IMG/VR virus record: IMGVR_UViG_3300042350_003533
Location: 1-27,405 of that record
Direction: 5' to 3' (one strand)
DNA length: 27,405 nucleotides
From: a virus
Both the position numbers and the translations under genes were made by a program. This document shows positions 1,603 to 25,910 of this stretch, one piece after another (the stretch's first letter is position 1; every line of letters begins with the position of its first letter). The notes under the pieces were generated by a model. The model was given only the letters and a program-made list of their open reading frames with translations. It was not told the origin of the DNA and searched no databases.

Positions 1603-3256
1603 GGTAGAATTTAGAAATTTTGCAAGTTATGGAAATAGAACTCAAGTAATTGAGTTTGATAAAGAGCAGAGCGATCTCTATCTGGTTCTTGGCGGAAATG
1701 GAGCCGGTAAAAGTACATTAGCTAAAGTTATAACATTTCTATGTTATGGTAGGGTTGAAGGAGCTAACCTACGTGATCTTCCTAACCGTGTAAATAATAA
1801 TCTTTGGGGTAAAATTTGGTTGGAAAGTAAAGGTAATCAAATTGAAATTGAAAGAGGAGTTTTACCAGGTATCTTTAATGTATCAATAAACGGTACAGAT
1901 TATGATGTTGCTGGTAAATCAAATCTACAAGAATTTTTGGAGACAGAGATTTATGAAATACCTTACCATGTATTTAAGAATGTTATTATCTTATCGGTTA
2001 ATGATTTTAAGTCATTTATTACCATGTCTCCGTTTGATAAGAAACAGATCATTGATAGGATCTTTGGTTTCTCTGTAATCAATCAGATGCGAGAATTGGT
2101 AAAGAATAAGAGAAAGATTATTATTGATGAGATCCGAACATTTGATGATGAGATCCGAACATTGGAAGAATCAATACAATCTGTCTTATTAAAGATAGAG
2201 CAGTATGAAGAAGCATCAAAAGAAAAGGATGCATCTAAAGTTGCCGAACTCAAGAAAAAGTTAGTTGATCTTAATGAAACTAGAAAAAAGTTAAAGGAGG
2301 CAAACGATAAGACTAGGATTAAGATTGATGATAATGATAAAAAGTATAAAGTTAAATCATCGAAAGAATCTGAAATTAAGTCAGAGATTAATGCCGTTAA
2401 AAAAGGATTAGAACTTTATCAAAATAATACATGCCCAACATGTAACTCTCCATTGGATTCTGAATTTCATCAACATATTAAAAAGGAAAAAGAAGATCTT
2501 TTAGAAACCTTAAATGCAAAGTATGAAAAGATCCAGTCTGAGGTTACTCAAATAGATGATGCTCTAACTGCGCTAAGGGAACAGGGTAAACAAATTCATG
2601 TAAAAGTTGGTCAACTTGAAACAACAATGAGTACTCTTAAGAATGAACTTATAGAATTAGCAGAAAAGGATGATGAATCATCTGGTCATCTTAAGGAATT
2701 GATAAAGGAATTTAAAGAAAAGAAAGAAGAAAAGGGAAATGTAAAACTTAAGAGCGAAGGTGAAGACTATTACTTAAGTATACTTGAAAATCTTATGGGA
2801 GATGATGGCATTAAGAATCTTGCTGTTAGATCAATTCTTCCATCTTTCAATAATAATATTCTTGTAATGGCCAAAGAAATGGGAATACCTTTTGGCATTA
2901 GGTTTGATGATAAGTTTAATTGTACCATTCATCATTTAGGTCAAGAGATAAGTCCTAAGACTTTAAGTACAGGTGAAAAGAAAAAGGTGGACTTTGTAAT
3001 TATCATGGCTTTAATTAAAATGATTAAAGTTAGATTCTCTAGTCTTAATATTCTATTCCTGGATGAAATCTTTTCTTCAATTGATTCTGATGGTGTTTAT
3101 CATATTATAAATATACTTCATGAAACTATCCAAGAGATAGGTCTTAATACCTTTGTAATTAACCACACCGTTCTACCTAGCGAATATTTTGACAAGAAAC
3201 TTGAAATCACTAAAGATGCTGGCTTTTCTGAGTTTACAATTGAAAGCATTAAATAA
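1589..3256 (+). CDS. 46: Recombination endonuclease ATPase subunit, gp46-like (Rad50/SbcC family)
   Basis: 555 residues, close to T4 gp46 (560). Walker A GGNGAGKST is at 35-43 (Lys41), followed by a Q-loop region, a long charged coiled coil, a CPTC zinc hook (Cys282, Cys285), a second coiled coil, the ABC signature LSTGE at 459-463, and Walker B with catalytic DE at 492-493. This is a complete Rad50-type SMC ATPase. It acts with gp47 on double-strand ends. The start overlaps the gp47 3' end by 14 bases, indicating coupling and equal expression. The hook and both ATPase halves are intact, so it should be functional. Confidence 0.94.
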   Translation: MRILKVEFRNFASYGNRTQVIEFDKEQSDLYLVLGGNGAGKSTLAKVITFLCYGRVEGANLRDLPNRVNNNLWGKIWLESKGNQIEIERGVLPGIFNVSINGTDYDVAGKSNLQEFLETEIYEIPYHVFKNVIILSVNDFKSFITMSPFDKKQIIDRIFGFSVINQMRELVKNKRKIIIDEIRTFDDEIRTLEESIQSVLLKIEQYEEASKEKDASKVAELKKKLVDLNETRKKLKEANDKTRIKIDDNDKKYKVKSSKESEIKSEINAVKKGLELYQNNTCPTCNSPLDSEFHQHIKKEKEDLLETLNAKYEKIQSEVTQIDDALTALREQGKQIHVKVGQLETTMSTLKNELIELAEKDDESSGHLKELIKEFKEKKEEKGNVKLKSEGEDYYLSILENLMGDDGIKNLAVRSILPSFNNNILVMAKEMGIPFGIRFDDKFNCTIHHLGQEISPKTLSTGEKKKVDFVIIMALIKMIKVRFSSLNILFLDEIFSSIDSDGVYHIINILHETIQEIGLNTFVINHTVLPSEYFDKKLEITKDAGFSEFTIESIK

Positions 3257-3259
3257 ATA
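3250..3259 (+). promoter_or_regulatory. Possible weak late promoter (gp15-like gene)
   Basis: TAAATAAATA contains AATAAATA, one mismatch from the T4 late -10 box TATAAATA. It overlaps the gp46 stop codon and lies 21 bases before the ATG at 3281, the same spacing as the better copies at 4281 and 14497. It lacks the TATATAAA core of the strong copies. Confidence 0.4.
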
Positions 3260-3280
3260 TACTGAAAATAATCGTTTCTA

Positions 3281-4261
3281 ATGTCAGCATATAATCAGGA
3301 GTTCAACAAGGATAATACCATTTTAAGATATGTAATGGTTGCTACTCTTGCAGAATTAAGAAATAAGGTTTACTATTATAACCAAATAGATGAGGATACT
3401 CTACAAAAAATAAATATCCCATTCTATTACTCAGTTACAGGTAATGAAAGATTCTTAATGGATAATTTCATATATGATGCAGCTGCTGATGGTAAAGCTT
3501 ATGGCGATTATGAAGTTGTACCTCGTGGCGTTTTACAGCTTAGTTCAATATCAATAGATTCTGGCAGTCAAACAAATAAATTTGTAAGAGGCGAATTTGT
3601 AAGAGAGTGGAATGGTCTGTTAAAAACATTTTCATTAGAGACTAACTTTCTTCCTTTAACTATGACATTTAGCATAACTGTTATATGTTCAAATAACCTT
3701 GAGATGTTAAAGGCAACTGAATCAATCTTAAGTAAGCTTTATAAGACTACATTATTTAATGTTGATTTAGGCATAATGAGAATCCAGGCAAGTATGGCTG
3801 TACCTGAAGATTTTAGTCAGGATAGACTTTTTGAATTTGCATTAAATGACAAGAAAGAATTTAATGTAACATTTGACCTTGAGGTTAAATCATTCGTTCC
3901 TGTTTTTGAAAATGGTATTCTTCTTAATGAAATTGCTGAATTAACTAGAGCTGCTATGGAATCTAATCCTAATGCAGAAGGTGTAGGTCTATTTAGATGT
4001 GGAGCTGATGGTAATGTAGGAATCTACTTTGGTGGAGTATTCCAGAAGTTTGAGTATACCGTTGATAATCTTGCAAAGGTTGCTCCAGAAAGTATCATAT
4101 CAAATCAACAATATGTTAATCCTAATGATATTAATAGAGGAGGACCTTACATAGAGTCTGAAACTACCTCGGCTGGGTTTAATCCAGATACGAAAAAATA
4201 CACCGATACGGAGACTGAGGCAAGTAAAGAATATAGAAATGCACAGGACGATGAAGGATAA
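3281..4261 (+). CDS. 15: Tail sheath stabilizer / tail completion protein, gp15-like
   Basis: 326 residues (T4 gp15 is about 272). From memory of T4 gp15 I see collinear similarity. An N-terminal aromatic/Arg segment runs into a strand with the INIPFYYS pattern (gp15 has IRVPITYAS). A central TMTFSITVICSNN segment is followed by a helix ending in ILSKLY (gp15: IYELSIFTRYEDD then EQILPYF). A late FNVTFDLEVKSFVPVF strand matches gp15 LTFEVNGWMYPPV. Gp15 caps the tail after sheath assembly and joins it to the neck. The extra C-terminal 90 residues, rich in Asn, Thr and Glu, are probably flexible. In T4, gene 15 sits beside 16; here it follows gene 46. Confidence 0.72.
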   Translation: MSAYNQEFNKDNTILRYVMVATLAELRNKVYYYNQIDEDTLQKINIPFYYSVTGNERFLMDNFIYDAAADGKAYGDYEVVPRGVLQLSSISIDSGSQTNKFVRGEFVREWNGLLKTFSLETNFLPLTMTFSITVICSNNLEMLKATESILSKLYKTTLFNVDLGIMRIQASMAVPEDFSQDRLFEFALNDKKEFNVTFDLEVKSFVPVFENGILLNEIAELTRAAMESNPNAEGVGLFRCGADGNVGIYFGGVFQKFEYTVDNLAKVAPESIISNQQYVNPNDINRGGPYIESETTSAGFNPDTKKYTDTETEASKEYRNAQDDEG

Positions 4262-4280
4262 TAACTTTAGGATCTTAGAA

Positions 4281-4288
4281 TATATAAA
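4281..4288 (+). promoter_or_regulatory. T4-type late promoter -10 box
   Basis: TATATAAA in the context GAATATATAAAAC, 21 bases before the ATG at 4310. It is the same element found before most virion genes in this window and contains TATAAA of the T4 late consensus TATAAATA. No -35 box is needed for gp55-directed initiation in T4. Confidence 0.75.
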
Positions 4289-4309
4289 ACAAATAAAAAA
4301 TCATCAAAT

Positions 4310-6139
4310 ATGAGTAAAGCAGTTAATGAAGGACAAACTCAAGTCTATTCGGATGGTAGTATTGAACCGCAATATGGTATAAATACTGATGCGCCATATC
4401 TTAATAACCCACCAAAGCAATTACTTGATCTTATTGCAGCTTTTTATAAAAGCGGTAAATCAGATAGTCAAGTTTTAGCAATCTTGGTAGGTATGGGAAC
4501 ACCGCAACAATTGGCATTATCTGGTATTAATGCATTTAAAGCCGCTACTCAGATGTATACAACTGAAAACAATCAAAAAAATCATAACAATATGAAATTT
4601 ACACTTGTAGGCTTATACGAAAATGTAATGAAAGCCATTAATGCATTAAATGAAATGGGAGAAGACAAATCAAGAGTTTCTTATTCTGCTAAAAATGCTC
4701 TTGGTATTTTAGAATCTTCTTTAGGATATTTTCCAATGAGATTCTCGAGCGGAGGTATTTCAATAATTAGCGAAGACATTGAAAATAATGTTAACCCAGC
4801 TCTTAAATATAAGATTGCAAAAACTCTTCATAGAGATCTTTCTTCTTCTGAATGGTTAAACCCAGTTAGAGAATTAAGAAGTTACATTATGGCTTCATAT
4901 GATTCTTCTAAATGGTCATTTAGAATTGCTGAGGCTATTGAAAGAACATCTGCACAAAAAGGTAAACTTTATGAAGGTTTAACTAATCAGTTAGAATCTC
5001 TTTTAAAAGAATCATCTGAAGATATTAAATCTAAGTTTACTTCAATTGCCGTAAAGAATCCTTGGTCTGCTGAATGTAAGAACATTCTAAACGAAATGGC
5101 TTCTTCTGATAAAAAGGCATATTCTAATAATGGAGGTAAGATTGGAAAGATCCTTTCTCCTGTATTAGAATCTGAAGAAGGATTAACATTCCACTTACAT
5201 GGAAAGAATTATATCTTTAATGAAGGCAAGATTTCTGAAACTGAAGTAAAGGATTCACGTTTCTTCGATGTTTTAGAAGGATTAAAAATGTTTAAACTTG
5301 ATGGTAGTTCATTAGTTACTTTTTCTGAAAATGGAAAAACTTTAGAATATAACATTGAAGAAGGTACATTAAGCTTAGGTGGTGTTGATCTTACTAATGC
5401 AAGTATTGTAGAATTAAAAGAATCTTTAATTGCAACTAGATTCTTTGGATATAGAGATCAGTGGAAAACTGATAATGTATGTAAATTCTTTGAGAATGTA
5501 GATCTTTTACACGAAATGGATAATTTCACTGGAATTACATCTACTGAATTCTTAAATCTTTTCTTAACCGTTATTGCTGTTGAGGAAGGCGTTTGGGTTA
5601 ATAAGGTTAACTTAGGAATGCAAATCAATGAAATGAAATTTTATTCATCAGCAACTGAGGTTGTCAAAATGATTAAAGAATTTATTAACTATGATGCATC
5701 TTCTATCTTATCTGAAAGATTAGTTGCTGAAGGAAATCAAAAAGCTATTACTGATAAGAAGAGAAATGAAATTAATGATAGGATCTCTTTCTTGGAAGAA
5801 AAGAAAGGTAGTATTACCGAAGCAATTAATAAATTAGGTAACTCTGAAGAATTACAAGAAGCCTTAAAACTTATCAATACTGAAATTACTAAATTTGAAA
5901 AGGAACTTCAGGAAACTTATTCAATAGTTGAAAAAAAAACTAAAAACCAATACCTAGATAATGGTTTTGTAGAGGCAACAATTGAAAACCCAGTATCAGG
6001 ATTTAAAGTAGATACTCAGGTTTATGTTAATGCTGAAGAATATGCTTCTTTAGGAGATAATGATTTATTAACATTCGTAGATCCTAAAAACGATAAAGAA
6101 CATATCGCTAAGAAAAAAGATCTTAAAGTTAAGCTCTAA
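4310..6139 (+). CDS. Large hypothetical protein, probable virion or assembly protein
   Basis: 609 residues with no family I can name. The N-terminal 90 residues contain LLDLIAAFYKSGKSDSQ and a Gly/Ala-rich helical stretch. The middle (about 290-380) looks like short beta strands (LHGKNYIFNEG, LVTFSENGKTLEY). A helical region follows, and a charged coiled coil occupies roughly residues 473-543. The C-terminal 60 residues look like a small beta domain with Lys-rich end (KKKDLKVKL). There is no signal peptide or membrane segment. A strong late promoter precedes it and a terminator follows, so it is a late single-gene unit after gp15-like. That expression pattern supports a structural or morphogenetic role, but this is inference. 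Confidence 0.8.
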   Translation: MSKAVNEGQTQVYSDGSIEPQYGINTDAPYLNNPPKQLLDLIAAFYKSGKSDSQVLAILVGMGTPQQLALSGINAFKAATQMYTTENNQKNHNNMKFTLVGLYENVMKAINALNEMGEDKSRVSYSAKNALGILESSLGYFPMRFSSGGISIISEDIENNVNPALKYKIAKTLHRDLSSSEWLNPVRELRSYIMASYDSSKWSFRIAEAIERTSAQKGKLYEGLTNQLESLLKESSEDIKSKFTSIAVKNPWSAECKNILNEMASSDKKAYSNNGGKIGKILSPVLESEEGLTFHLHGKNYIFNEGKISETEVKDSRFFDVLEGLKMFKLDGSSLVTFSENGKTLEYNIEEGTLSLGGVDLTNASIVELKESLIATRFFGYRDQWKTDNVCKFFENVDLLHEMDNFTGITSTEFLNLFLTVIAVEEGVWVNKVNLGMQINEMKFYSSATEVVKMIKEFINYDASSILSERLVAEGNQKAITDKKRNEINDRISFLEEKKGSITEAINKLGNSEELQEALKLINTEITKFEKELQETYSIVEKKTKNQYLDNGFVEATIENPVSGFKVDTQVYVNAEEYASLGDNDLLTFVDPKNDKEHIAKKKDLKVKL

Positions 6140-6155
6140 TTCTTAAAACTCATAT

Positions 6156-6188
6156 AAAAAGCTGACAGGTAAACTGTCGGCTTTTTTT
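6156..6188 (+). terminator. Rho-independent terminator
   Basis: A 9-bp stem AGCTGACAG / CTGTCGGCT (one G-U pair) with loop GTAAA is followed by seven T residues. An A-run before the stem could pair with the T-tract. It lies 17 bases after the 609-residue gene and separates it from the gp55-like gene. Confidence 0.85.
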
Positions 6189-6191
6189 GCA

Positions 6192-6199
6192 TATAATAA
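6192..6199 (+). promoter_or_regulatory. Possible weak promoter upstream of the gp55-like gene
   Basis: TATAATAA, 16 bases before the ATG at 6216 and just past a terminator. It differs from the TATATAAA late box and is closer to a generic TATAAT -10. A promoter is needed here because the terminator isolates the gene, but its type cannot be decided from sequence. Confidence 0.35.
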
Positions 6200-6215
6200 A
6201 AAAATAGTTCAGGTT

Positions 6216-6581
6216 ATGCCGAGAAAAAGGAATTACTTAAATAATAGAGATCTTTTAGATGAAATACGTAAATCAAAAGAACTTGATGAATTAACACCAA
6301 AGGCTCTAGAGTTCTTAATGTTATTAGCAGATAAATGTTCTACTAAACTTACCTATAGAGATCCTGCCGATAGAGAAGACTGTATTGCTTTTGCCTATAT
6401 GGATCTTTATCGTTATTGGAGAAACTTTGATCCAGAAAAAAGTGAAAATGCATTTGCATATTTTACTGAAATTGCAAAACGAGGTTTTGCAAAAGGCTGG
6501 AACAAATTACATCCTAAGAAGTATGCAGGTACCGTATCAATTGACGGTAGTGCAGATAGCGAAGGGATTTATACAATCTAG
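6216..6581 (+). CDS. 55: Late-transcription sigma factor, gp55-like (short form)
   Basis: 121 residues, against about 185 for T4 gp55. The N-terminus (NYLNNRDLLDEI) resembles T4 gp55 (YNYVNNKELLQAI). Residues about 51-98 read as sigma region 2: DREDCIAFAYMDLYRYWRNFDPE, then an aromatic helix AFAYFTEIAKRGF. These correspond to core-RNAP binding and -10 recognition. No region 4 is present, as in gp55. The short tail ends SEGIYTI and could be a reduced clamp-binding motif, since T4 gp55 ends with a hydrophobic/acidic motif that binds gp45; that is inference. The many TATATAAA boxes in this window are its expected targets. Followed by gp4 after 10 bases. Confidence 0.78.
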   Translation: MPRKRNYLNNRDLLDEIRKSKELDELTPKALEFLMLLADKCSTKLTYRDPADREDCIAFAYMDLYRYWRNFDPEKSENAFAYFTEIAKRGFAKGWNKLHPKKYAGTVSIDGSADSEGIYTI

Positions 6582-6591
6582 TATAATACCT

Positions 6592-7068
6592 ATGAGTATA
6601 AAAAATGTCAAACCAACAGTAAAGTCAGGATTTAAACAAGGTTATTATAAACCGCATCACCCTGAAAAGTATATAGGTCCTGCACCTATCATATATAGAA
6701 GTTCGTGGGAAAGAAAATTTTGTCATTGGTGTGATCATAATGAAAATGTAATTAGTTGGGTATCTGAACCGTTTGCAATTAAATACTTTAATGTTTTAGA
6801 CAAAAAGTTTCATAACTATTATCCAGACTTTTATGTTAAGATGGATAAGGATGGAATCATTGAGGAGTATGTAGTTGAAATAAAACCAAAAGAACAGTTA
6901 AGAAAACCAAACCCTCCTAAAGTTAAGACCAAAAAAGCAATTGAAAACTTTAAATATGTTTATGAAATGTATGTAAAGAATCTATGTAAAGCTGATGCTC
7001 TTAATAAGGCTGCGGCCCAAAGAAATTTTAAGGTTATGTTATTAACTGAAGATTCAAACCTTTTCTAA
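6592..7068 (+). CDS. 4: Head completion protein, gp4-like (PD-(D/E)XK-like motif)
   Basis: 158 residues from the ATG at 6592, close to T4 gp4 (about 150; also called gp50/65). The longer open frame from 6385 lies inside the gp55 gene and is rejected. Similarity to remembered T4 gp4 runs through the centre: IYRSSWERKFCHWCDHN (T4 TYRSNWEKFFFEWLDKN), an ISWVSEPFAIKYF segment (T4 IAWGSETAVIPYF), YYPDFYVKM (T4 YFMDIWMKD), VVEIKPKEQ (T4 FIEIKPKKE), and the LLTED near the end (T4 ILTED). Asp79, Glu96 and Lys98 fit the PD...(D/E)XK nuclease core, so a DNA-end or connector role in filled heads is plausible. It follows gp55-like closely and ends 1 base before the next gene. Confidence 0.88.
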   Translation: MSIKNVKPTVKSGFKQGYYKPHHPEKYIGPAPIIYRSSWERKFCHWCDHNENVISWVSEPFAIKYFNVLDKKFHNYYPDFYVKMDKDGIIEEYVVEIKPKEQLRKPNPPKVKTKKAIENFKYVYEMYVKNLCKADALNKAAAQRNFKVMLLTEDSNLF

Positions 7069-7069
7069 G

Positions 7070-7645
7070 ATGATTATAGGGAATTTTACAGATGATTTAG
7101 ATTTATACATTGCAGAGAATAAAGGGCAGGCTCGTGCTTCTAAAGCATCCTCTAATGATTTATTAGCAGCAGGAATAAAAGGCACAGGAGTATTGGATCA
7201 AGGAAGAATGTATACTTTTAGATACTTTACTGAAGATGAAGACTTTTATGATACGTTTCCTATTGTAATTGGTTTAGGTGCGGTACCTGGGTCAAGAACT
7301 AATCAACTTGGTATTAATTTACATTACCTACCGTATGATGCAAGAATACCTTTTATTGAGGATATCATAAAATCATTTGGATCTTTCTTTAAATCTCAAT
7401 TTAATTTTGCTGGAGAAATAGCAAAACAATCATACAATAAAAATTTTACTTATGAGGCTGTTAAAAAATCATTAGGTAGAAAATATAACTTAACATATGC
7501 AATTAGACAGTACAGGTTAGATCGAATGAAGGATCCTAAAATCATAGGATATGAAGATTGGTATATGGGTGCGGTTAATGATGATAACAATTTCTTCGGT
7601 GGAGATATTAATCAGGCGCAAGCATTATATTACAAGAATATATAA
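7070..7645 (+). CDS. Hypothetical protein, probable virion component
   Basis: 191 residues. The recognisable part is about residues 45-95: MYTFRYF, then YDTFPIVIGLG, then LGINLHYLPYDARIPF. I have an impression of a similar Tyr/Phe-Pro and GLNLHYLP signature in unassigned proteins of other T4-like phages, but cannot name the family with confidence. The C-terminal half is basic and Tyr-rich (KYNLTYAIRQYRLDRMKD). In T4, gene 4 is followed by gene 53, but this protein does not look like gp53. It starts 1 base after gp4, and its stop codon overlaps the late promoter of the portal gene. Confidence 0.8.
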   Translation: MIIGNFTDDLDLYIAENKGQARASKASSNDLLAAGIKGTGVLDQGRMYTFRYFTEDEDFYDTFPIVIGLGAVPGSRTNQLGINLHYLPYDARIPFIEDIIKSFGSFFKSQFNFAGEIAKQSYNKNFTYEAVKKSLGRKYNLTYAIRQYRLDRMKDPKIIGYEDWYMGAVNDDNNFFGGDINQAQALYYKNI

Positions 7646-7646
7646 A
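7639..7646 (+). promoter_or_regulatory. T4-type late promoter -10 box (portal)
   Basis: TATATAAA in GAATATATAAAAC, 18 bases before the portal ATG. It overlaps the final codons and stop of the preceding gene, so the upstream reading frame ends in NI to accommodate the box. Confidence 0.75.
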
Positions 7647-7664
7647 ACATAATAACTACAGAAT

Positions 7665-9314: not shown

Positions 9315-9333
9315 AAACTTTATAAGTTGATAA

Positions 9334-9341
9334 TATATAAA
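9334..9341 (+). promoter_or_regulatory. T4-type late promoter -10 box (protease-scaffold)
   Basis: TATATAAA followed by T (TAATATATAAATC), 18 bases before the ATG at 9360. Seven of the eight bases TATAAATA are matched within it. Confidence 0.78.
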
Positions 9342-9359
9342 TCAAATAACAAGTAGAAG

Positions 9360-11093: not shown

Positions 11094-11109
11094 AACTAAA
11101 GAACTATAA

Positions 11110-11119: not shown

Positions 11120-11190
11120 ACAAATCTAATAGCTAAGAAGCAAAGAGCTACAGATTGATTAATAAAACAAACAAAAAAACAAAAAACAAA

Positions 11191-12909: not shown

Positions 12910-12931
12910 TAAATAGTAATCATACTGTTTG

Positions 12932-12960
12932 AAAAGGTCCGCTTCGGCGGACCTTTTTTT
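12932..12960 (+). terminator. UUCG-tetraloop terminator after the capsid gene
   Basis: Stem AAAAGGTCCGC / GCGGACCTTTT closed over a C(UUCG)G tetraloop, ending in seven T residues. It starts 23 bases after the capsid stop. Ideal rho-independent terminator form. Confidence 0.95.
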
Positions 12961-12968
12961 GTCTTAAA

Positions 12969-14451: not shown

Positions 14452-14479
14452 AAAAGGTCTACTTCGGTAGACCTTTTTT
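14452..14479 (+). terminator. UUCG-tetraloop terminator
   Basis: Stem AAAAGGTCTAC / GTAGACCTTTT over a C(UUCG)G loop with six T residues, 19 bases after the 379-residue gene. Nearly identical in design to the capsid terminator at 12932, with a compensated 3-bp difference at the top of the stem. Confidence 0.94.
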
Positions 14480-14496
14480 GTCTTTAGTCTCTTGAA

Positions 14497-15656: not shown

Positions 15657-16140
15657 AGTTCGTAAGATAAACTTTGGATGGTATAGAAGGCGGCATGGTA
15701 TTCTTTTAGAAAATCTGCCGCCTTCAAAGCAAAGATTCATGGTAGAGAATGATTACCTAAAATGGTTAGATGCAGATACTCAAGCATTTGAGATCATATT
15801 TAAGGTAGAGGATATGAATGATCATGAAAAGAATCCTAACAAGATTCTTTGGAATCCTTTTCGTGAAACTTTTACCACAATTAAAGAAGTTGAATCTGAC
15901 TCAAATGTTATGGATTGGAATTGCGCAATCTGTGACGTGGAGATTAAGTCAAGAATGGATTCAAAAAAGATAGAAAACTTTGTTTGTAAAAGATGTTCTG
16001 AGGCTCATAACTCACGGAATAAAAGGGTTGATCAAAGAGTAATAGATTCCTCTGTTAAATTTACTAAACACTGTAAATCTCTTCTAAAAGGTGAACAAAG
16101 GGAGTTTATAAACTATATTAAGAGATCATTTAAGGGATAG
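15649..16140 (+). CDS. Hypothetical zinc-ribbon protein
   Basis: 163 residues, basic. Two CxxC knuckles (Cys92/Cys95 and Cys113/Cys116), about 17 residues apart, can bind one zinc as a ribbon. The N-terminus is strongly basic (KVRKINFGWYRRRHG). The C-terminus is basic and helical, ending KRSFKG. It overlaps the previous gene by 8 bases and the minus-strand gene by 15 bases tail to tail. A nucleic-acid or protein-binding role is plausible from the zinc ribbon and charge. I do not recognise the family. Confidence 0.75.
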   Translation: MYKVRKINFGWYRRRHGILLENLPPSKQRFMVENDYLKWLDADTQAFEIIFKVEDMNDHEKNPNKILWNPFRETFTTIKEVESDSNVMDWNCAICDVEIKSRMDSKKIENFVCKRCSEAHNSRNKRVDQRVIDSSVKFTKHCKSLLKGEQREFINYIKRSFKG

Positions 16141-16935
16141 AGCTTTATCTAAAGTAATCCTCGGCCAAACGGTTAGCAAACTTTTAGGAGAAGCATTATA
16201 AACCTCAACACCCTTTTGTTTAAGAAGATCTGCAATAACTCTAAACCCTGGTATAAACTGGTCTCTATAAATATTATCACCAGTAACAGGAACTGGATAT
16301 CCATTATGATGATGGCTTACCTTTCCATCATTACCCATATCATATCCTAACAATACAATTCTTTTTGCGCCTAAATGATATGCTAGGTTGATAGCAGCAT
16401 ATCCGCTGTTATTTCCATGTGCAAGAGTATCCTTTGATTCCTCAAGACCAAATTTATTTCCTCTTTTAAGAATCTTAATATCACCTATGTATGATGGATG
16501 ATCTCTTATTGTAAATTTTAGACCTTTGAAATCATCTATCTCTTTTTTCATCCATGAGTAAACTCGGGAATCTGTCCAATAGAGAACCTGTGCACTAGGA
16601 TACGATACCAAAGATTTGTTAATTGCTATAACCTTTTTACCATGTAATGAAGTCCAGTTAAAATCTCTAAGAGAAGGTCCACCACCAATAATAAAAACCG
16701 TTTCCCCTGACCACATTTGATCAACCTTACCAACTGCTCTTCTTGTAGGTTGACCTACCGCATTCATGGTTAAGTTTCTTTTTTGTACAACTGGTATGTT
16801 GTCCGGGCTTACGATTATTCTACCTAACTTTTCATCAGATGAACCTTTCTTTACAACAGTTGGTGGCATGCCGCGGTTTTCTTTAATGATAGGTACTCTT
16901 CTGTCATTACCTAGTATTTTCCTTACTCTTCTCAT
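16126..16935 (-). CDS. DUF115 / MptE-like Rossmann protein, putative glycosyltransferase-like
   Basis: 269 residues, the only minus-strand gene here. After a basic, Pro-rich N-terminal extension of about 75 residues comes VFIIGGGPSL (about 80-89), a nucleotide-binding loop typical of DUF115/MptE-like proteins. Then KKVIAINKS, a YWTD segment at 119-122, SGYAAINLAYHLGAKRIVLLGYDM at about 177-200 and a His-rich HHHNGYP. In that superfamily members are pterin diphosphokinases or are linked to sugar transfer and flagellin glycosylation; the phage substrate is unknown. It faces the zinc-ribbon gene with a 15-base overlap and diverges from gp44 across 80 bases. It may be an independently regulated accessory gene, possibly for modifying a virion or cell-surface glycan. 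Confidence 0.8.
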   Translation of the reverse strand: MRRVRKILGNDRRVPIIKENRGMPPTVVKKGSSDEKLGRIIVSPDNIPVVQKRNLTMNAVGQPTRRAVGKVDQMWSGETVFIIGGGPSLRDFNWTSLHGKKVIAINKSLVSYPSAQVLYWTDSRVYSWMKKEIDDFKGLKFTIRDHPSYIGDIKILKRGNKFGLEESKDTLAHGNNSGYAAINLAYHLGAKRIVLLGYDMGNDGKVSHHHNGYPVPVTGDNIYRDQFIPGFRVIADLLKQKGVEVYNASPKSLLTVWPRITLDKALSLK

Positions 16936-16992
16936 GTAGGTCTTATATGATTTTTTTATTTATCCTTGGTAAAACTATCACACGAGTTTGCA

Positions 16993-17000
16993 TATAAAAA
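16993..17000 (+). promoter_or_regulatory. Possible promoter upstream of gp44
   Basis: TATAAAAA in CATATAAAAATA, 15 bases before the ATG at 17016, in the divergent 80-base gap. It departs from TATATAAA, so it may be an early or middle promoter or a degenerate late box. The minus-strand gene must also have its promoter in this gap; I see only AT-rich sequence for it. Confidence 0.35.
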
Positions 17001-17015
17001 TAAACTATATCTTAT

Positions 17016-17978: not shown

Positions 17979-17979
17979 T

Positions 17980-18144: not shown

Positions 18145-18157
18145 CCTGTTATTATTT

Positions 18158-18164: not shown

Positions 18165-18176
18165 TATAAAACATAG

Positions 18177-19391: not shown

Positions 19392-19394
19392 GTT

Positions 19395-19685: not shown

Positions 19686-19705
19686 CCTATAATAAAAAAT
19701 AGGAT

Positions 19706-20122: not shown

Positions 20123-20774
20123 ATTTGAGTTAGGTATTCCTACGCACATTTACTTCACACTTTATAAGTTTGATCACATTGATAGTATTATCATATCAAG
20201 GGTAATAAAGGAGTGTAAAAACTCGAATACTTCTGATGATGAAAATCTATTCACTGTTGATGTGGATTCTTTTGTGTCTGCAATCAAAGGAAATAAAAGA
20301 TTAGAAAAAGAAATCACAAAAGCTGAAGCAGATGGTCTTTCATCTATACCTGGACATAAACCAAATTCAGTTACATTTCTTTGGTCAATTATTGACAGAC
20401 TTGAAAACTTAGAGTGGTTAACCTTTTCAGTTTCTTATGATAAGAAATTTAGTAGAGTTGTTAAGGTTAACAATAAAGAAATTATGAGCTTCTATTTTAA
20501 GATAGAAGAAGGTATTTTTGACTTAACTCAAGTATTTGGTAGAAGCCAATTAGATATCATTAATAAAAAGATAATTGAGTATAAGATTATGCCAAATAAG
20601 TATCTGGAAAGATCTGGGTATTTTTACATGCAAGCTTCTTTATTATTTGAGATATTAGGCCAACTTGAAATTGATGGCACCCTTAGTACATTTGATCTTC
20701 TTGATCATATTGATCAAAAATTGGAAGAAGATGATCCTGTTCTTTTAGTGAAGACAGACTATACTCCTTATTAA
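20106..20774 (+). CDS. Hypothetical protein after gp62-like
   Basis: 222 residues from the second of two adjacent ATGs (20103 and 20106; either possible). It starts inside the gp62-like gene. Composition is mixed alpha/beta with a Lys-rich region near 65-80, a WSIIDRLENLEWLTFSVSYDKKFSR segment, and an acidic C-terminus DQKLEEDDPVLLVKTDYTPY. No metal-binding or NTP-binding motif is visible, and there is no signal or membrane segment. No late box precedes it, so it belongs to the replication transcription unit. Function unknown. Confidence 0.75.
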   Translation: MLIDNKFELGIPTHIYFTLYKFDHIDSIIISRVIKECKNSNTSDDENLFTVDVDSFVSAIKGNKRLEKEITKAEADGLSSIPGHKPNSVTFLWSIIDRLENLEWLTFSVSYDKKFSRVVKVNNKEIMSFYFKIEEGIFDLTQVFGRSQLDIINKKIIEYKIMPNKYLERSGYFYMQASLLFEILGQLEIDGTLSTFDLLDHIDQKLEEDDPVLLVKTDYTPY

Positions 20775-20778
20775 GGAA

Positions 20779-20786
20779 TATATAAA
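20779..20786 (+). promoter_or_regulatory. T4-type late promoter -10 box
   Basis: TATATAAA in GGAATATATAAAC, 12 bases before the ATG at 20799. It marks the return from replication genes to virion genes and probably serves both the membrane protein and the neck/LamG gene 3 bases beyond it. Confidence 0.75.
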
Positions 20787-20798
20787 CAAAAAGGTCTT

Positions 20799-21227
20799 AT
20801 GAAAAGTTTTTTAAGGAGATGTTGCGAGTCTAAGCGCGAATGTGTAACATATTTAATCGTATTTTTATGGTTAGCGGTTGGAGTTACTGCAACATATTTT
20901 GAAACTGATTTTACAGCGTTAGCTGCATATTTTGTTTCCCTAACAGGTTTCGTTGCTTCATATATTTTTGGTGAAAGTGTTCGTAAAAGTAAAAATTCAT
21001 CAATATTTTTACCAGGTCCTAACAGTAGAAGAGAAGTTATGATGTATGTTACAATAGCTCTCTGGTTAACAGTAGGAGTTTGGGTAATTGTACAGAAAGC
21101 TGATCTTATTGGTGTAAGTGCATATTTTGCTGCTTTAACCCCATTTGTAGGTTCATATATTTTAGGTGAAACATTTAAGAAAGAAGTAACTATTATCGAA
21201 GACGATATAGAACAAATAAATTCATAA
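20799..21227 (+). CDS. Small membrane protein with duplicated two-helix unit, holin-like candidate
   Basis: 142 residues with four probable membrane helices in two similar halves 65 residues apart: LWLAVGV at 23-29 and LWLTVGV at 88-94, AAYF at 42-45 and SAYF at 107-110, FVASYIFGES at 51-60 and FVGSYILGET at 116-125. The N-terminus has RRCCESKREC. A basic loop (65-80) joins the halves and the tail is acidic (EDDIEQINS). It should sit in the inner membrane with the loop and both ends probably in the cytoplasm. Size, late expression and lack of enzymatic motifs make a holin or other lysis/envelope protein conceivable, but no lysin is nearby. AAAGG 5 bases before the ATG is one of the few SD-like sites in the window. 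Confidence 0.82.
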   Translation: MKSFLRRCCESKRECVTYLIVFLWLAVGVTATYFETDFTALAAYFVSLTGFVASYIFGESVRKSKNSSIFLPGPNSRREVMMYVTIALWLTVGVWVIVQKADLIGVSAYFAALTPFVGSYILGETFKKEVTIIEDDIEQINS

Positions 21228-21230
21228 TAA

Positions 21231-23189
21231 ATGGCCGTCGTAGGAACAACAACAAACGAGAATGGCGATGCTATTTTAATAAGTCTCCAAGAACCTTACA
21301 AAAATGTTGTAGAGGTAATAAGTTATAGTGATCAAACAGAAGGAGAAACTACATCATGTTATTTTACTAAATCTTTTAGATGGGGTATAGATGGAGTTAC
21401 ATATTCTGATTGGATTCCCTTAACAAATGTGAATCTAGAGGCTTTATTAGTTAACCCAATTAATCCATTTTGGGTGCAGTATAAGTATGAACAGGTGGGC
21501 GATGGCACACTAGAATTTAAGTCTATCTCACTAGAAATAGTTACAGACGGTGGAGTTATTTGTAAAGTTCCACAAATAAATTGTTGTGATAGTGGATCAT
21601 TATCAGGAGCTCAAAACTTAGTTATTGACTGTTGCGGTTCTTCTTGGAATCCTTATGATCTTTCTAGAGCTGCACAAATGTATACACAACTATCATCTGT
21701 TGCATCTAACCTATTTGGGTTTTGTGTTAAGTACTTTAAGACATCTGCCGATCAAAGAAGCCGAGATGTTATCCTAAAGGAGTATTCTTTATTTAATGTA
21801 ATCGCATCTGCTGAGGTAAAGATTATGTTTCCTAATAATGAATTACCTACACAAGAGATTCAATTCAATCCTCTTATGATGGATTTTCCTGTACAATTTG
21901 AAGTACATATAGTAAAGTCTTCGTTTGAACAGGTATTTGGTGTTGGAGCAAAACCACAAATGAGAGACTACTTATATCTGCAGCCTTACCTAAATAGTAT
22001 TTATGAGGTTGATGCAGTAGCAGAACCAGATGACTTTTTATATACCAGTTCATATTGGAGAGTAAGCCTTGTTCCTTATCAACAAAGAACAGCCGTTCTT
22101 TATCCTGATAAAAACATTGAAGATGAAAAGGATGCATTGGTTAGTAGCATTGAGAGTAAGTTTGGCGAAGAAGCAAATAATGAATATGATGACGTTGTAA
22201 AACCTAATCAATATAACACAATAGGAACACAATGTAATGATTATGTTAGAAGAATTCTTGATAAGAAACTTATAATTAAAGAAGAGAATGTTTACAACAG
22301 ATGGACAATAATTTCAAAATATAATTATAAGTTATCATCTATGACAACTGGTACTGAAGCTATAGAATACAGATATAACAAAGGTTGGGGACTTAATGAT
22401 GATAGAGCATTTACATTTTGGATTAGACCTACTTATACAAATCCAATTGGTCCAAACGTAGCAATTACAGGAATATCAAATAGTAGCGGTAAAGTAAAAC
22501 TAAATACTTCAGGTCTACCGATATATGCTAATGCATTAAATGTTGGGGATTGGGTAAATGTTGCAGGAACTGCATCATATAATGGTTTACATAAAATTAT
22601 TGCAGTAGGTGCAACCAGTATTGATATTGATACACCTTATATTAATAACACTACTCAAGGTACTCCAAGATTTAATAGAGAGGCTAGCAATAATTTCATG
22701 ATTTATGAAAACTCTCTAATACCTCCAACTGACTATGTATCTTTTACCTATACCCCAAATTGGTTTATAATTAAGATAGGAGATACCTACTTTAAGTATA
22801 ACCTAAATGCGCAAGGATTAACTTTATTACATGATAATTGGTATGCATTTGTTATTAATATAAATAGCATTGCACAGCAGATAAGTTTATTTGGTTATAA
22901 CACAGTTAAAGATACGGGTGCAATTAATCCTGAAAATACATCACAGTTAAATCAGATATTTGTTGAAACTAAGTTATATACACCGATAGCAATTCCTGAT
23001 TCTAATTCATGGAAACTATTAGGATCCAATACTGACATAACAAATATTCGTATTTGGAGTAAACCTATTGAGGAAGAATTACAAGAATTGATTTTATCAC
23101 AATATGTTGTTAAGGATACTCACTTAACACTTCTGTTAGATAATGCTGCACCTCAGCTATTACTTAACAGACAACTCGACTCACGTTAA
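21231..23189 (+). CDS. Neck protein gp14-like domain fused to a LamG-like C-terminal domain
   Basis: 652 residues. Residues 1-105 look like a beta-sandwich (FRWGIDGVTYSDWIPL). Two Cys pairs follow (118-119, 134-135). Residues about 160-285 resemble T4 gp14 from memory: VKYFKTSADQRSRDVILKE (T4 CYYVPREYVSPDLIFGED) and RDYLYLQPYLNSIYEVDAVAEPDDF (T4 [24 protein letters not shown]). Residues about 390-610 look like a concanavalin/LamG fold: FTFWIRP, HDNWYAFVINI, SLFGYN, ITNIRIWSKP, with a small Gly/Asn beta insertion near 425-485. T4 gp14 is only 256 residues. It lies just before gene 16, where T4 has 13-14-15, which supports a neck role. The LamG part may bind a glycan or another fibre. Confidence 0.75.
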   Translation: MAVVGTTTNENGDAILISLQEPYKNVVEVISYSDQTEGETTSCYFTKSFRWGIDGVTYSDWIPLTNVNLEALLVNPINPFWVQYKYEQVGDGTLEFKSISLEIVTDGGVICKVPQINCCDSGSLSGAQNLVIDCCGSSWNPYDLSRAAQMYTQLSSVASNLFGFCVKYFKTSADQRSRDVILKEYSLFNVIASAEVKIMFPNNELPTQEIQFNPLMMDFPVQFEVHIVKSSFEQVFGVGAKPQMRDYLYLQPYLNSIYEVDAVAEPDDFLYTSSYWRVSLVPYQQRTAVLYPDKNIEDEKDALVSSIESKFGEEANNEYDDVVKPNQYNTIGTQCNDYVRRILDKKLIIKEENVYNRWTIISKYNYKLSSMTTGTEAIEYRYNKGWGLNDDRAFTFWIRPTYTNPIGPNVAITGISNSSGKVKLNTSGLPIYANALNVGDWVNVAGTASYNGLHKIIAVGATSIDIDTPYINNTTQGTPRFNREASNNFMIYENSLIPPTDYVSFTYTPNWFIIKIGDTYFKYNLNAQGLTLLHDNWYAFVININSIAQQISLFGYNTVKDTGAINPENTSQLNQIFVETKLYTPIAIPDSNSWKLLGSNTDITNIRIWSKPIEEELQELILSQYVVKDTHLTLLLDNAAPQLLLNRQLDSR

Positions 23190-23196
23190 CATAGAA

Positions 23197-23204
23197 TATA
23201 TAAT
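23197..23204 (+). promoter_or_regulatory. T4-type late promoter -10 box (terminase operon)
   Basis: TATATAAT in GAATATATAATC, one base off TATATAAA, 15 bases before the ATG at 23220. It would drive the overlapping small terminase, co-chaperonin and large terminase genes. Confidence 0.62.
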
Positions 23205-23219
23205 CTAAATTAAGGATTA

Positions 23220-23837
23220 ATGAAAGAAGAATCTAAACATAAATTTAGAGATAGCCTCGGTGACTTATTAAGTGATTTGCCAGATGAGGTACCGGGTTTA
23301 GAAGATACCCCACAATTACCAAGAGTTAAGGCAGAAGGAACACAGGCTGTTGCATTACAAACTGCAAAGAATAAAGCGCAGAGAGTAATGAATAATCTTC
23401 TTAAGTTTTATTTAAGTGAAGAGATTATTGAGGAGCACGAGTACATTAAAGTAAAAGCAGAACTTGATGAGTATGCATTAGGAATGCTTATACGTCAAAT
23501 GCAAAATAGTGAATCTGCTATTTCAACATTAATGGATACTATAAACGAAGGTGATGTATCTCCACGAATGTTTGAAGTACTTAGCGATCTTCAAAGAACA
23601 TTATTAGATATCATAAAAAGTCAAACCATGTATATGGTTGCAATTGAAGAAAATGCCAAAAAGCTTTCTAGGGATATTGATGTCTATCATGGTGGATCTA
23701 ATGATAACGGTTCTCAAAAGAAATCAACTACAACGGGTCTTAAGGCAAGAGGAACCAAAGATCTTATGAGAGCATTACAAGATAGTATTAATGAAGAAGA
23801 TATACAAGATGTCGATGCAAATCAAGATGAAGAATAA
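23220..23837 (+). CDS. 16: Terminase small subunit, gp16-like
   Basis: 205 residues (T4 gp16 is 164). N-terminal DLLSDLPDEVPGLEDTPQLP resembles T4 gp16 LLDISDLPGIDGEE. The central helices include GDVSPRMFEVLSDLQ (T4 NADSPRHMEVFATLM) followed by a long helix with IEENAKKLSRD. The C-terminus TKDLMRALQDSINEE matches T4 PTELMDEIGDAYEAQE. This oligomeric subunit selects DNA and stimulates the gp17 ATPase. It overlaps the co-chaperonin gene by 11 bases. AAGGA upstream of the ATG is a weak SD-like site. Confidence 0.82.
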   Translation: MKEESKHKFRDSLGDLLSDLPDEVPGLEDTPQLPRVKAEGTQAVALQTAKNKAQRVMNNLLKFYLSEEIIEEHEYIKVKAELDEYALGMLIRQMQNSESAISTLMDTINEGDVSPRMFEVLSDLQRTLLDIIKSQTMYMVAIEENAKKLSRDIDVYHGGSNDNGSQKKSTTTGLKARGTKDLMRALQDSINEEDIQDVDANQDEE

Positions 23838-24081
23838 CTATGTTCTTACAAAAGAGATCATAGAAGAAAAAATAAGCGAGGGCGGTATCATATTACCTAC
23901 CGAAAAGTACAATCGTAAATGTGTTATTATTAAATCTAATACTGACATTTTACCAGAAGGATGTACTGTTATAAAAACAATTGGCAAAGGTACGATGTTC
24001 AAAATAAATGGAGAAGAATATGAAGCTCTCCATGAAAATGATATCTTAGCCATAATAGAAGAAGATGGCACAGAAACCTAG
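23827..24081 (+). CDS. GroES-like co-chaperonin (functional counterpart of gp31)
   Basis: 84 residues from the ATG at 23827 (upstream in-frame ATGs at 23791, 23809 and 23815 would add residues that lie before the usual GroES start). The fold signature is clear: NYVLTKE at the N-terminus, the mobile loop with SEGGIILP at 17-24, a central PEGCTVI turn, INGEEYEALHENDILAIIEE at the end. That last segment matches bacterial GroES (YEVLIMSESDILAIVE type) better than T4 gp31. Gp31 works with host GroEL to fold gp23, and the same use is likely here. It sits between, and overlaps, both terminase genes (11 and 17 bases), an unusual location. The roof region is short compared with GroES (97 residues). 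Confidence 0.8.
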   Translation: MKNNYVLTKEIIEEKISEGGIILPTEKYNRKCVIIKSNTDILPEGCTVIKTIGKGTMFKINGEEYEALHENDILAIIEEDGTET

Positions 24082-25882
24082 AGCAGAAAGCGCAGGCTTT
24101 GAATTTAAAGTAGGGGCAGCTGAAGAATCCTTTTCATGGACTTCAGAAAAGGTAGAGCAACTTATGCTTGCTTTAGAAGAAGGGTATAAACCTAAAGCAA
24201 CACCTTTTTATGAAGGTAATCCAAACCTAAGAAAAGGCAACATAGTTTTTAATTATACACCACACGAGATTAGAGAAATCAAAAAGTGTGCTACTGATAT
24301 CGTATATTTTGCAAATACTTATTGTACTGTAATGACCGATTTTGGTTTACAGACTATTAAGTTAAGAGGATATCAAGAGGAAATGTTAAGGCAGTTCCAA
24401 GCAGAACGATTTAATGTATGTTTAGCATCTCGTCAGATTGGTAAAACGATTTGTTCATCAATCTTTATCGCCTGGTATTCATTATTCAATTATGATAAGA
24501 ATTCTCTCGTTCTTTCAAATAAGGGTGCTACTACGAGAGAAATCATTGATAAAGGTAAAACAATTCTTGAACACCTACCGTTCTTTTTAAAGCCAGGTGT
24601 AATTAAATGGGATGTATTCAATTCTAAATTTGATAATGGCTGTCGTATTATTGGTCAAACAACCACTAAGAAAGCGGCTATCGGTTTTACCATTCACTTA
24701 CTGTTCATGGATGAGTTTGCACATATTCCTCAAAACTTTGTGGAAACCTTTTATGAAAACGTTTATCCTACTGTATCTGCTTCATCAAATTCAAAAGTAA
24801 TTATTACAAGTACACCGAACGGCTTTAATAAATTTTATGACATTTATTCGGCTTCAGAGAAAGGGTTAAATGAATACTCACCGTTTAGAGTTGATTGGTG
24901 GGATGTACCTGGCAGAGATGAGGCATGGATGCAACAAGAAGTTGCTAACCTCGGTTCAGAAGAAGCATTTAACAGACAATACGGAAATCAATTTATTGCC
25001 AGCTCTTCTCTATTATTGGGTGCCGATAGTCTTAAAAAGCTTCAACAAAATCAAAAAGAATTTGTTCATAAAGAAGTTCCTGAATTTGAAGAAGAAAATG
25101 TTTCTTACGATGGCCTAGTATGGGATCCAACATTTGAGTTAGACGAAATTGAGGAAGATACGAATTACTGGCTATTCTCTATTGATATAGCTGAAGGAAA
25201 CGGCGGTGACTATTCAATAATCAATATCTTTAAGATTGAAATTATGGATGAACCTGATTGGAAAAAGATAACATCGCCAGGTTCATTCGTTGACTTTTTT
25301 AGAATAAGACAAATTGGTAGGTTTAGAAGTAATGAACACACAATAGAAGAATTTGCAAAAGCAGTTTACATTTTAGCGTTTGATATGTTTCATTCAGAAA
25401 ACGTTAAGATGATTATTGAGTGGAATATGTTTGGTGGAGAATTGATTAAAAGACTTGAAACTGTATTTCCACAAAGAAATGAATTTGATGAAGAGATGAT
25501 AGTTAAGTTTAAACATCGTATAGATGCAAAAACAAAAAACTTTGGTCTTAAGGTTAAAAAAGATAATAAACCAATCTTTTGTCAAAATTTCAAAAAGTAC
25601 ATAACACAGAACAGAATTGTTATTAAAGATAAGAAAACTGTCTATGAAGCATCTACATTTGGTAAGATGCCAAATGGATCATATGCAGGCCAATTAGGTC
25701 ATGATGATCTTATTATGACAAGCATAAATAGTTCCGAATTTTTCTTTACTTTGGACTTCTCCGACTTTGTTGAAGAGATCTATGATACTGTAGATGATTC
25801 ACTTCAGGCAAAGATTGATGAGATCTTAGATAAAGATTCAAAAGGAGGAAATCTTAATTACGATATTTATGATCTTGTGTAG
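24065..25882 (+). CDS. 17: Terminase large subunit, gp17-like (packaging ATPase and nuclease)
   Basis: 605 residues, equal to T4 gp17 (610). The adenine-binding motif GYQEEML precedes Walker A ASRQIGKT at 121-128. Walker B LLFMDE has Asp216 and catalytic Glu217, and the coupling motif TSTPNG follows. The RNase H-like nuclease has Asp374 in SIDIAEG, Glu452 in IIEWN and GHDD at 545-548. It pumps DNA into the prohead through the portal and cuts the concatemer. All catalytic residues are present. It begins inside the co-chaperonin gene and ends 56 bases before the tail sheath gene, matching the T4 17-18 order. Confidence 0.95.
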   Translation: MAQKPRAESAGFEFKVGAAEESFSWTSEKVEQLMLALEEGYKPKATPFYEGNPNLRKGNIVFNYTPHEIREIKKCATDIVYFANTYCTVMTDFGLQTIKLRGYQEEMLRQFQAERFNVCLASRQIGKTICSSIFIAWYSLFNYDKNSLVLSNKGATTREIIDKGKTILEHLPFFLKPGVIKWDVFNSKFDNGCRIIGQTTTKKAAIGFTIHLLFMDEFAHIPQNFVETFYENVYPTVSASSNSKVIITSTPNGFNKFYDIYSASEKGLNEYSPFRVDWWDVPGRDEAWMQQEVANLGSEEAFNRQYGNQFIASSSLLLGADSLKKLQQNQKEFVHKEVPEFEEENVSYDGLVWDPTFELDEIEEDTNYWLFSIDIAEGNGGDYSIINIFKIEIMDEPDWKKITSPGSFVDFFRIRQIGRFRSNEHTIEEFAKAVYILAFDMFHSENVKMIIEWNMFGGELIKRLETVFPQRNEFDEEMIVKFKHRIDAKTKNFGLKVKKDNKPIFCQNFKKYITQNRIVIKDKKTVYEASTFGKMPNGSYAGQLGHDDLIMTSINSSEFFFTLDFSDFVEEIYDTVDDSLQAKIDEILDKDSKGGNLNYDIYDLV

Positions 25883-25902
25883 AAAAGTAGCTATGCCGTG
25901 GA

Positions 25903-25910
25903 TATATAAA
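25903..25910 (+). promoter_or_regulatory. T4-type late promoter -10 box (tail sheath)
   Basis: TATATAAA in GGATATATAAAAAAAG, 28 bases before the tail sheath ATG, in the 56-base gap after gene 17. The leader is almost purely A and T. Confidence 0.76.

Follow-up and report, generated by a model that had tools for sequence, protein, structure and literature searches.

A variant of the T4-type late promoter predicted in a huge Bacteroidota-type phage

Introduction

The late promoters of bacteriophage T4 (TATAAATA) lack a −35 element and are followed by AT-rich DNA downstream (PMC2988020). Position −13 is loose among the T4-like phages, and Aeromonas phage Aeh1 carries the shifted late consensus CTAAATA, altered at −12 (PMC1524935). 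In the late sigma factor gp55 of T4, a helix-loop-helix region that follows region 2 is required (PMC7892883). In Bacteroidota the promoter consensus is TTTG / TAnnTTTG, and translation is initiated without Shine-Dalgarno sites, the known signals being single As at −3 and −6 (PMC6847099).

Here we analysed a stretch of 27,405 nt, referred to as the window, with a GC content of 33% (positions 1–27,405 of IMG/VR record IMGVR_UViG_3300042350_003533), from a huge phage of the Bacteroidota type. An initial annotation had proposed a late regulon whose consensus departs slightly from that of T4. This proposal is supported by conservation, strand bias, gene association and a gp55 homologue, after correction of the register of the box, the status of the site at 1562, the promoter class of the replication genes and the content of the regulon.

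Materials and Methods

Orthologous sites were compared among IMG/VR relatives, counting non-redundant upstream sequences, and in the 462-kb relative LR756500, for which expectation-maximization (EM) motif search was confined to intergenic upstream DNA. The association between promoter class and gene class was examined by Fisher's test on a small table assembled by hand.

Results

Register and frequency of the late box

The late element of the window is RATATATA(AW), present in 10 copies, all intergenic and on the plus strand (Table 1). The start of the RATATATA core lies 22–38 nt before the ATG, except for the capsid gene (83 nt). The initial annotation had taken the 8-mer TATATAAA as the unit, with nine exact sites (4281, 7639, 9334, 11110, 12969, 13270, 14497, 20779 and 25903) and a one-off copy at 23197, which reads TATATAAT. 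All of these sites are real, but the list was incomplete, as four further exact copies exist at 1246, 1562, 19721 and, on the minus strand, 22037. The spacing of 12–28 nt from box end to ATG also holds, except that the capsid gap is 73 nt, not 71 nt.

The register of the 8-mer was wrong. The equivalent of T4 positions −13 to −6 is RATATATA, which starts two bases earlier, so that the difference from TATAAATA becomes A to T at −9 plus T to R at −13. Orthologous upstreams of gene 23220 carry RATATATA in 13/13 cases and TATATAAA in 0/13, while those of gp46 carry TATATAAA in 10/16 and RATATATA in 0/16, ruling out TATATAAA as the unit. The copy at 1562 is a coding copy inside gp47, its end 19 nt from the gp46 ATG, and the RATATATA core is never present at this site in relatives.

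Chance TATA strings in AT-rich intergenic DNA, selected by eye, would agree with the modest excess of the bare 8-mer, some copies of which are coding: 13 were seen against 5.6 ± 2.5 in shuffles (about 2.3-fold), and 2 of 100 shuffles reached 13. In contrast, RATATATAAW was found 10 times (the nine listed sites and 23197) against 1.9 expected, with as many in none of 100 shuffles; this count, the strand bias and the 98–100% conservation within diverged upstreams already refute an origin by chance. RATATATA was present in 10 of 26 upstream stretches of 90 nt (null mean 0.9, maximum 5 in 3000 draws). Scoring the extended form, together with this upstream null, makes 23197 a full member and excludes 1562. 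The canonical T4 consensus TATAAATA stays at chance level, with 5 occurrences in the window against 5.7 expected.

A −35 element was sought by information content over positions −60 to −5 relative to the core, giving 0.0–0.2 bits per position for 53 LR756500 sites and 50 sites in relatives. Closer to the core, weak signals for C (0.4) at position −4 and G (0.7) at position −1 occur in the relatives but not in LR756500. Downstream of the box, AA is conserved where −1/+1 would fall. Recognition by the host primary sigma rather than gp55, with the boxes as host-type or generic AT-rich promoters, would suit the TATA-like sequence and the low GC content of the window, but is improbable: no upstream element accompanies the late boxes, matches to the sigma-70 pattern are at chance level, TTTG / TAnnTTTG is absent at the boxes, and LR756500 has a separate TTATTATATTTA class, similar to the Bacteroidota consensus, at other genes.

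Table 1. Predicted promoter elements and associated features of the window
Feature	Position	Strand	Remarks
Late box AATATATAAA	4279..4288	+	31 nt from core start to ATG of gene 4310 (609 aa); RATATATA in 16/16 non-redundant orthologous upstreams
gp55-like late sigma gene	6216..6581	+	121 aa; sigma region 2 and conserved disordered tail; phrog_234, 1.6e-15
Late box AATATATAAA	7637..7646	+	upstream of gene 7665 (portal, gp20); overlaps the stop codon of the preceding gene; 15/15 orthologues
Late box AATATATAAA	9332..9341	+	before prohead protease/scaffold gene 9360; 19/20 orthologues
Late box AATATATAAA	11108..11117	+	83 nt upstream of major capsid gene ATG 11191
Nested RNA hairpin, capsid mRNA leader	11123..11156	+	loop AAGAAG[CA]AAA; conserved
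Terminator-like hairpin	12931..12958	+	precedes late box at 12967
Late box AATATATAAA	12967..12976	+	directly after terminator-like hairpin, before gene 12992 (82 aa); 4/4 orthologues
Late box GATATATAAA	13268..13277	+	before gene 13293 (379 aa); 2/2 orthologues
Terminator-like hairpin	14452..14477	+	precedes late box at 14495
Late box AATATATAAA	14495..14504	+	directly after terminator-like hairpin, before gene 14526 (376 aa); 7/12 orthologues
AAAC upstream element	16972..16975	+	19 nt before middle-type box
Middle-type box CATATAAAAATAAA	16991..17004	+	upstream of gene 17016 (gp44, clamp loader); CATATAAAA in 20/23 non-redundant orthologues
Late box AATATATAAA	20777..20786	+	before gene 20799 (142 aa, membrane-type); 12/12 orthologues
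Late box AATATATAAT	23195..23204	+	before gene 23220 (205 aa); one-off copy of the initial annotation; RATATATA in 13/13 orthologues
Late box GATATATAAA	25901..25910	+	upstream of gene 25939 (tail sheath); box shared with G001, G002 and LR756500

Conservation and target genes

Equal frequency of the motif before replication genes had been named in the initial annotation as evidence against a late regulon. At orthologous sites in the IMG/VR relatives, 75 of 76 non-redundant sequences upstream of five genes carried RATATATA, against 0/96 upstream of gp46, gp47, gp44, rnh and gp55. The late-box columns are 98–100% identical across orthologous upstreams, compared with 51–80% for the 5' flanks. In relatives with genes in one direction, the strand bias of the box was 13:0, 13:0, 11:0, 9:0, 7:0, 7:0 and 8:0, and in one relative recorded in reverse it was 1:6. 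In LR756500, the leading EM motif was taATATATAA, found before 66 genes at a median of 26 nt from the ATG; by RATATATA itself, 65 genes were detected against 4.5 expected.

The genes behind late boxes include those for portal, protease, capsid, sheath and baseplate wedge, as well as the tail sheath stabiliser gene and a terminase piece; no replication gene tested is among them. The regulon also takes in homing endonucleases and a glycosyltransferase and is not confined to virion genes. The claim that each box in the window precedes a known or probable virion gene stands for portal, protease/scaffold, capsid and sheath, but not for the remaining 6 of the 10 boxed genes (4310, 12992, 13293, 14526, 20799 and 23220), for which family searches gave no match indicating virion function. 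In a small table made by hand, late box and middle class (see below) differed by gene type with Fisher p 0.007 for the window plus G002, and 0.0014 with LR756500 included. Besides these six boxed genes lacking an assigned function, two observations count against the assignment as late promoters: ATATATA is present within 140 nt upstream of the capsid gene in only 15/46 relatives, and neither the terminase nor, in the window clade, the tail sheath stabiliser has its own late box, and such late genes must be read through.

The 73-nt gap between the capsid late box and the ATG contains a covarying hairpin (fold z −2.78). Its inner pairs 1–4 are formed in each of 34 distinct leaders, and compensatory changes are seen in them. 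An Rfam search of this hairpin gave no match.

A different element before replication genes

Middle promoters of T4 consist of a MotA box and a −10 element. In the window, gp44 had been described as having only a weak box or none, but this was mistaken, since a strong, conserved and different element, CATATAAAAATAAA, precedes the gene. AAAC is located 19–20 nt upstream in 14/14 non-redundant middle boxes. By sequence, the replication genes carry their own bipartite predicted promoter class, AAAC-N15-CATATAAAAATAAA, distinct from the late box. It resembles T4 middle promoters in being bipartite and in preceding replication genes, but its upstream element is AAAC, not a MotA box. No copy of CATATAAAAATAAA was found in LR756500.

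The presence of this second class bears on whether the late box could be a translation-initiation element. In Bacteroidota, where Shine-Dalgarno sites are missing and A-rich leaders are favoured, an AT-rich stretch before the ATG could serve ribosome binding, and the boxes do lie 22–38 nt before most ATGs in A-rich leaders. Replication genes are also translated, however, yet they carry the different element and no late box. Moreover, the box itself is fixed although its distance to the ATG spans 22–83 nt, two boxes come directly after terminators, and the signals described for Bacteroidota consist of one A each at −3 and −6 rather than an 8-mer (PMC6847099). A role in translation initiation is thus very unlikely.

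The gp55-like sigma factor

The gp55-like gene reported at 6216 was borne out by its phrog_234 match (Table 1) and by an AF2 model closest to T4 gp55: among 350,542 PDB chains, the best Foldseek match was 7d7c_F (T4 gp55 open complex; TM 0.71, E 0.014). The Pfam Sigma70_r2 match was just under the cut-off. The promoter-pocket residues N13, Y97 and T99 of T4 gp55 correspond to N10, Y82 and T84 in the window and are invariant in 37 homologues. Unlike T4 gp55, the protein of 121 residues lacks the helix-loop-helix after region 2, both in the alignment and in the model; this counts against the late-promoter assignment. The region is likewise missing in gp55 of LR756500, Lak, PAU and PTm1.

The C-terminal tail is conserved and disordered (D..GIYTI), and its likeness to the clamp-binding tail of T4 gp55 is only suggestive. 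A clamp-binding tail common to gp55 and the DNA polymerase was considered; it is suggestive at most, and no claim is made. By eye, the PAU gp55 tail FDMIFNESV resembles LDFLYEAND of T4. A search for the sliding clamp gp45 with PF02916 gave no match, as did the control.

Variation at −9 among lineages

Within the frame ATA-N-ATA, T4, cyanophages, Melnitz and Lak have A at −9; the window clade, LR756500, LR756501/2/4 and probably pT24 have T. Putative late boxes were found here in Sphingomonas phage PAU and Tenacibaculum phage PTm1, which share with the window clade a short gp55 and ATA-N-ATA before portal, protease, capsid and sheath genes, but differ in having C at −9 (TATACATA). Those found in Lak megaphage Lak-A1, with a related capsid, a short gp55 and a purine common before the core, differ from the window clade in having A at −9 (RATAAATA), as in T4. 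The late consensus of the T4-like phage Aeh1 is shifted as well, but at −12, a position that the window clade keeps while altering −9.

All phages examined that have A at −9 carry L at the gp55 residue of T4 position 54; elsewhere this residue is C, S, V, T, M, I or Y. A prediction from this residue was fixed before further phages were examined, and it held for Melnitz (L), which has ATAAATA. In MA9V-2 (I), −9 is a mixture of A, C and T, and pT24 (Y), outside the prediction, has ATATATA before some late genes. In MaF61, with an interrupted gp55, no ATA-N-ATA class was found, and Cr30 and phiN3 gave no clear late-box class. Across few independent lineages, the prediction therefore had one clear success and no clear failure. 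A change of the −9 contact residue H95 (T4 numbering) to F was rejected as the cause, because cyanophage S-PM2 has F yet carries ATAAATA. We tentatively suggest, at somewhat less than even chance, that late-promoter specificity in the T4 superfamily drifts mainly at −9 within a fixed ATA-N-ATA, with pocket residue 54 of gp55 varying alongside. If true, natural gp55 variants would be a readable code for one promoter base.

Discussion

The boxes described here are very probably T4-kind late promoters of a huge Bacteroidota-type phage, predicted to be read by its gp55-like sigma. Sequence, position, conservation, strand bias, gene association, and the homology and predicted fold of the sigma are the direct basis; from these we infer that the sigma recognises the box and that transcription is late, and likewise the position of the start and any link to a sliding clamp. 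Like T4 late promoters, the boxes are single −10-like 8-mers with ATA-N-ATA, AT-rich DNA downstream and a position before virion genes; unlike them, they carry T instead of A at −9 and a purine instead of T at −13. Given ATA-N-ATA with T at −9, the conservation at orthologous sites, the lack of a −35 element and the gp55-like fold, the predicted consensus is, as judged from sequence, a new variant of the T4-type late promoter.

In the proposed mechanism, the promoter would consist of the single −10-like element RATATATA (T4 −13 to −6) without a −35 element, followed by an A-rich melting region, and transcription is predicted to start about 13 nt downstream of the first box position. Bound to the core RNA polymerase of the host, the minimal gp55-like sigma would read the single-stranded non-template strand of the box. 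A−12 and A−8 would sit in the two deep pockets retained from T4 (Y97 and T99, kept as window Y82 and T84), with T in place of A at −9.

A predicted late regulon thereby becomes available for a clade of huge phages that is both widespread and uncultured, so that many unknown genes could be sorted from DNA only into virion/late and replication/middle sets. In combination with the solved structure of T4 gp55 on its promoter, the lineage-specific base at −9 makes the joint evolution of sigma and promoter directly testable with natural proteins.

The putative late box in the window

The T4-type block of this 27,405-base IMG/VR virus record runs from SbcD/SbcC (gp47/46) through the tail sheath stabiliser, gp55, head closure, DNA end protector, portal, protease/scaffold, capsid, unknowns, gp44, RNase H/exonuclease and terminase to the tail sheath. 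The capsid protein shares 56% identity with that of LR756500, an uncultured huge phage of 462 kb, and 30-38% with those of Lak, other huge phages of 630-735 kb, PTm1 and PAU. The phages above 634 kb in this capsid-matched set have been described as Bacteroidetes-infecting Mahaphages (PMC7162821), and we infer a Bacteroidota-type host.

The ten box coordinates of the initial annotation were all correct on recount, and its list of TATATAAA lacked four further copies, one of them 19 nt ahead of the gp46 ATG. Extension of the site to RATATATAAW parted the signal from noise: this form occurs ten times (1.9 expected; 0 of 100 shuffles reach ten), on the plus strand only and exclusively in front of genes, the gene starts being those of a simple ORF caller and the gene classes coming from PHROGs/Pfam matches that some of the genes have.

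Features located in the window
Feature	Position	Strand	Remarks
TATATAAA copy at gp46	1562-1569		inside gp47, ahead of the gp46 ATG
Head-closure gene	6592-7068		phrog_218 (2.3e-41); adjoins the 3' side of gp55; without its own late box
Nested RNA hairpin (predicted)	11123-11156		major capsid mRNA leader; loop AAGAAG[CA]AAA
Sialyltransferase-like gene	16129-16935	minus	phrog_4603; sole minus-strand gene in the block; divergent from gp44
Putative bipartite middle-type promoter	16972-17004		AAAC-N15-CATATAAAAATAAA, ahead of gp44
GroES/gp31-like co-chaperonin gene	23791-24078		Pfam Cpn10 (5e-8), phrog_3188; overlaps the end of a 205-aa late gene

Conservation upstream of orthologues

Orthologue upstreams were taken from loci that searches with the portal and capsid had returned, and were treated as non-redundant when at least 8 of 60 bases differed. 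RATATATA was present ahead of gene 4310 (16/16), the portal (15/15), protease (19/20), genes 20799 (12/12) and 23220 (13/13) and two further genes (4/4 and 2/2), most counts coming from related genomes rather than independent events. It was absent from the upstream sets of gp46, gp47, gp44, rnh, gp55, terminase, 15649 and 20103. Identity within the box was 98-100%, against 51-80% in the 5' flank. At the box site, relatives of 23220 carry AATATATAAT or AATATATATT, which makes RATATATA, rather than TATATAAA, the conserved unit. At gp46, 10 of 16 relatives have TATATAAA and none has RATATATA; this copy is probably kept through protein-coding constraint.

The capsid box lies 73 nt ahead of the ATG because the leader holds the nested hairpin. 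Inner pairs 1-4 are formed in all 34 distinct capsid leaders, with compensatory exchanges (T-A, C-G, G-C, A-T), and the outer pairs alternate between AATCT/AGATT and AATCG/CGATT. Pairs 1, 2 and 4 exceed every shuffle, a significance overstated by the relatedness of the leaders. No Rfam family matched the hairpin.

Register and the -9 base

The T4-like character of the consensus held, while the register in which TATATAAA had been aligned with the T4 consensus TATAAATA did not: a two-base upstream shift aligns RATATATA. ATA-N-ATA is then common to both, and only -13 and -9 differ. As the -13 T is already loose among T4-like phages (PMC1524935), -9 is the real change. By the same count of sites near starts versus antisense, ATAAATA was found in S-PM2, the positive control (16 vs 0), Melnitz and Lak, and ATACATA in PAU (36 vs 2) and PTm1 (26 vs 7), where it precedes 4/11 of the structural genes and 0/25 of those for replication (p 0.006). 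ATATATA lies ahead of late genes in LR756501/2/4. In PAU, the late-type motif is TATACATAT; about 55-60 genes there have another abundant motif upstream, TAGTATAATA, which AACTGAAACTT sometimes precedes.

The gp55-like protein (121 aa) matches phrog_234, and the best PDB fold match of its predicted structure (pLDDT 77.5) is T4 gp55 in the promoter open complex. T4 pocket residues N13, Y97 and T99 are conserved as N10, Y82 and T84; the T4 helix-loop-helix and linker are absent, and the C-terminal end is a conserved, disordered D..GIYTI tail. In the T4 cryo-EM structure A-12, A-9 and A-8 sit in pockets, that of -9 being shallow (PMC7892883); the invariant box bases of this comparison are -12 and -8, the pair that T4 gp55 holds in deep pockets. 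L54 is the only pocket residue segregating with -9: leucine occupies this position in all -9 A phages examined, assigned by published consensus (T4, RB43, a KVP40-like phage) or by counts (S-PM2, Melnitz, Lak), and other residues occupy it in the remaining phages. H95 was rejected as a determinant, showing no segregation with -9. That residue 54 may be associated with the -9 base is offered as a hypothesis, the comparison being post hoc, drawn from few independent lineages and followed by a mostly uninformative test.

A putative second promoter class

The gp44 upstream, initially described as having weak signals or none, carries CATATAAAAATAAA, kept as CATATAAAA in 20 of 23 orthologues. AAAC stands 19-20 nt upstream of this box in 14/14 non-redundant sites, and the natural reading of the motif is a putative middle-type promoter of replication and nucleotide-metabolism genes. 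In the relative G002 it precedes genes 8, 9, 26, 29, 47, 66, 72, 104, 109 and 140, including NTP pyrophosphohydrolase, both DNA polymerase halves, UvsX, topoisomerase II, thymidylate kinase, a thioredoxin-domain protein, gp44, a dehydrogenase and one 'minor coat protein' family match. The polymerase there is split into two far-apart genes (9 and 26), each with its own putative middle-type promoter. No gene carried both boxes.

The middle-type box is absent from LR756500. A third class in that genome, TTATTATATTTA / aaaCTTTnTTATTATATTTAca (about 52 genes, mostly of unknown function), resembles the Bacteroidota -7 element TAnnTTTG and is possibly early.

Putative late promoters across related genomes

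In six relatives (70-140 kb) and in LR756500, the most enriched pre-gene 9-mers include ATATATAAA or AATATATAA, and in LR756500 such a 9-mer ranks first (37 genes vs 3.7 expected; 4 antisense). Box-seeded EM on LR756500 intergenic upstreams gave taATATATAAtaaAA in 66 genes, at a median of 26 nt from the ATG. The first position is a purine, and counting from the first box base, two As at positions 12 and 13 are strongly kept, where -1 and +1 of the predicted start would fall; no -35 signal was found around the box. The box in LR756500 stands ahead of genes for baseplate wedge, a terminase piece, capsid, protease, sheath and tail sheath stabiliser, among others, and also of several homing endonuclease genes. 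No earlier report of this consensus was found in the literature searched, most subscription journals lying outside its coverage. Structural genes were reported not to form a single transcribed operon in huge phages of Bacteroidetes that carry a comparable conserved block and may be of another clade (PMC9723584), a pattern that would fit many separate late promoters.
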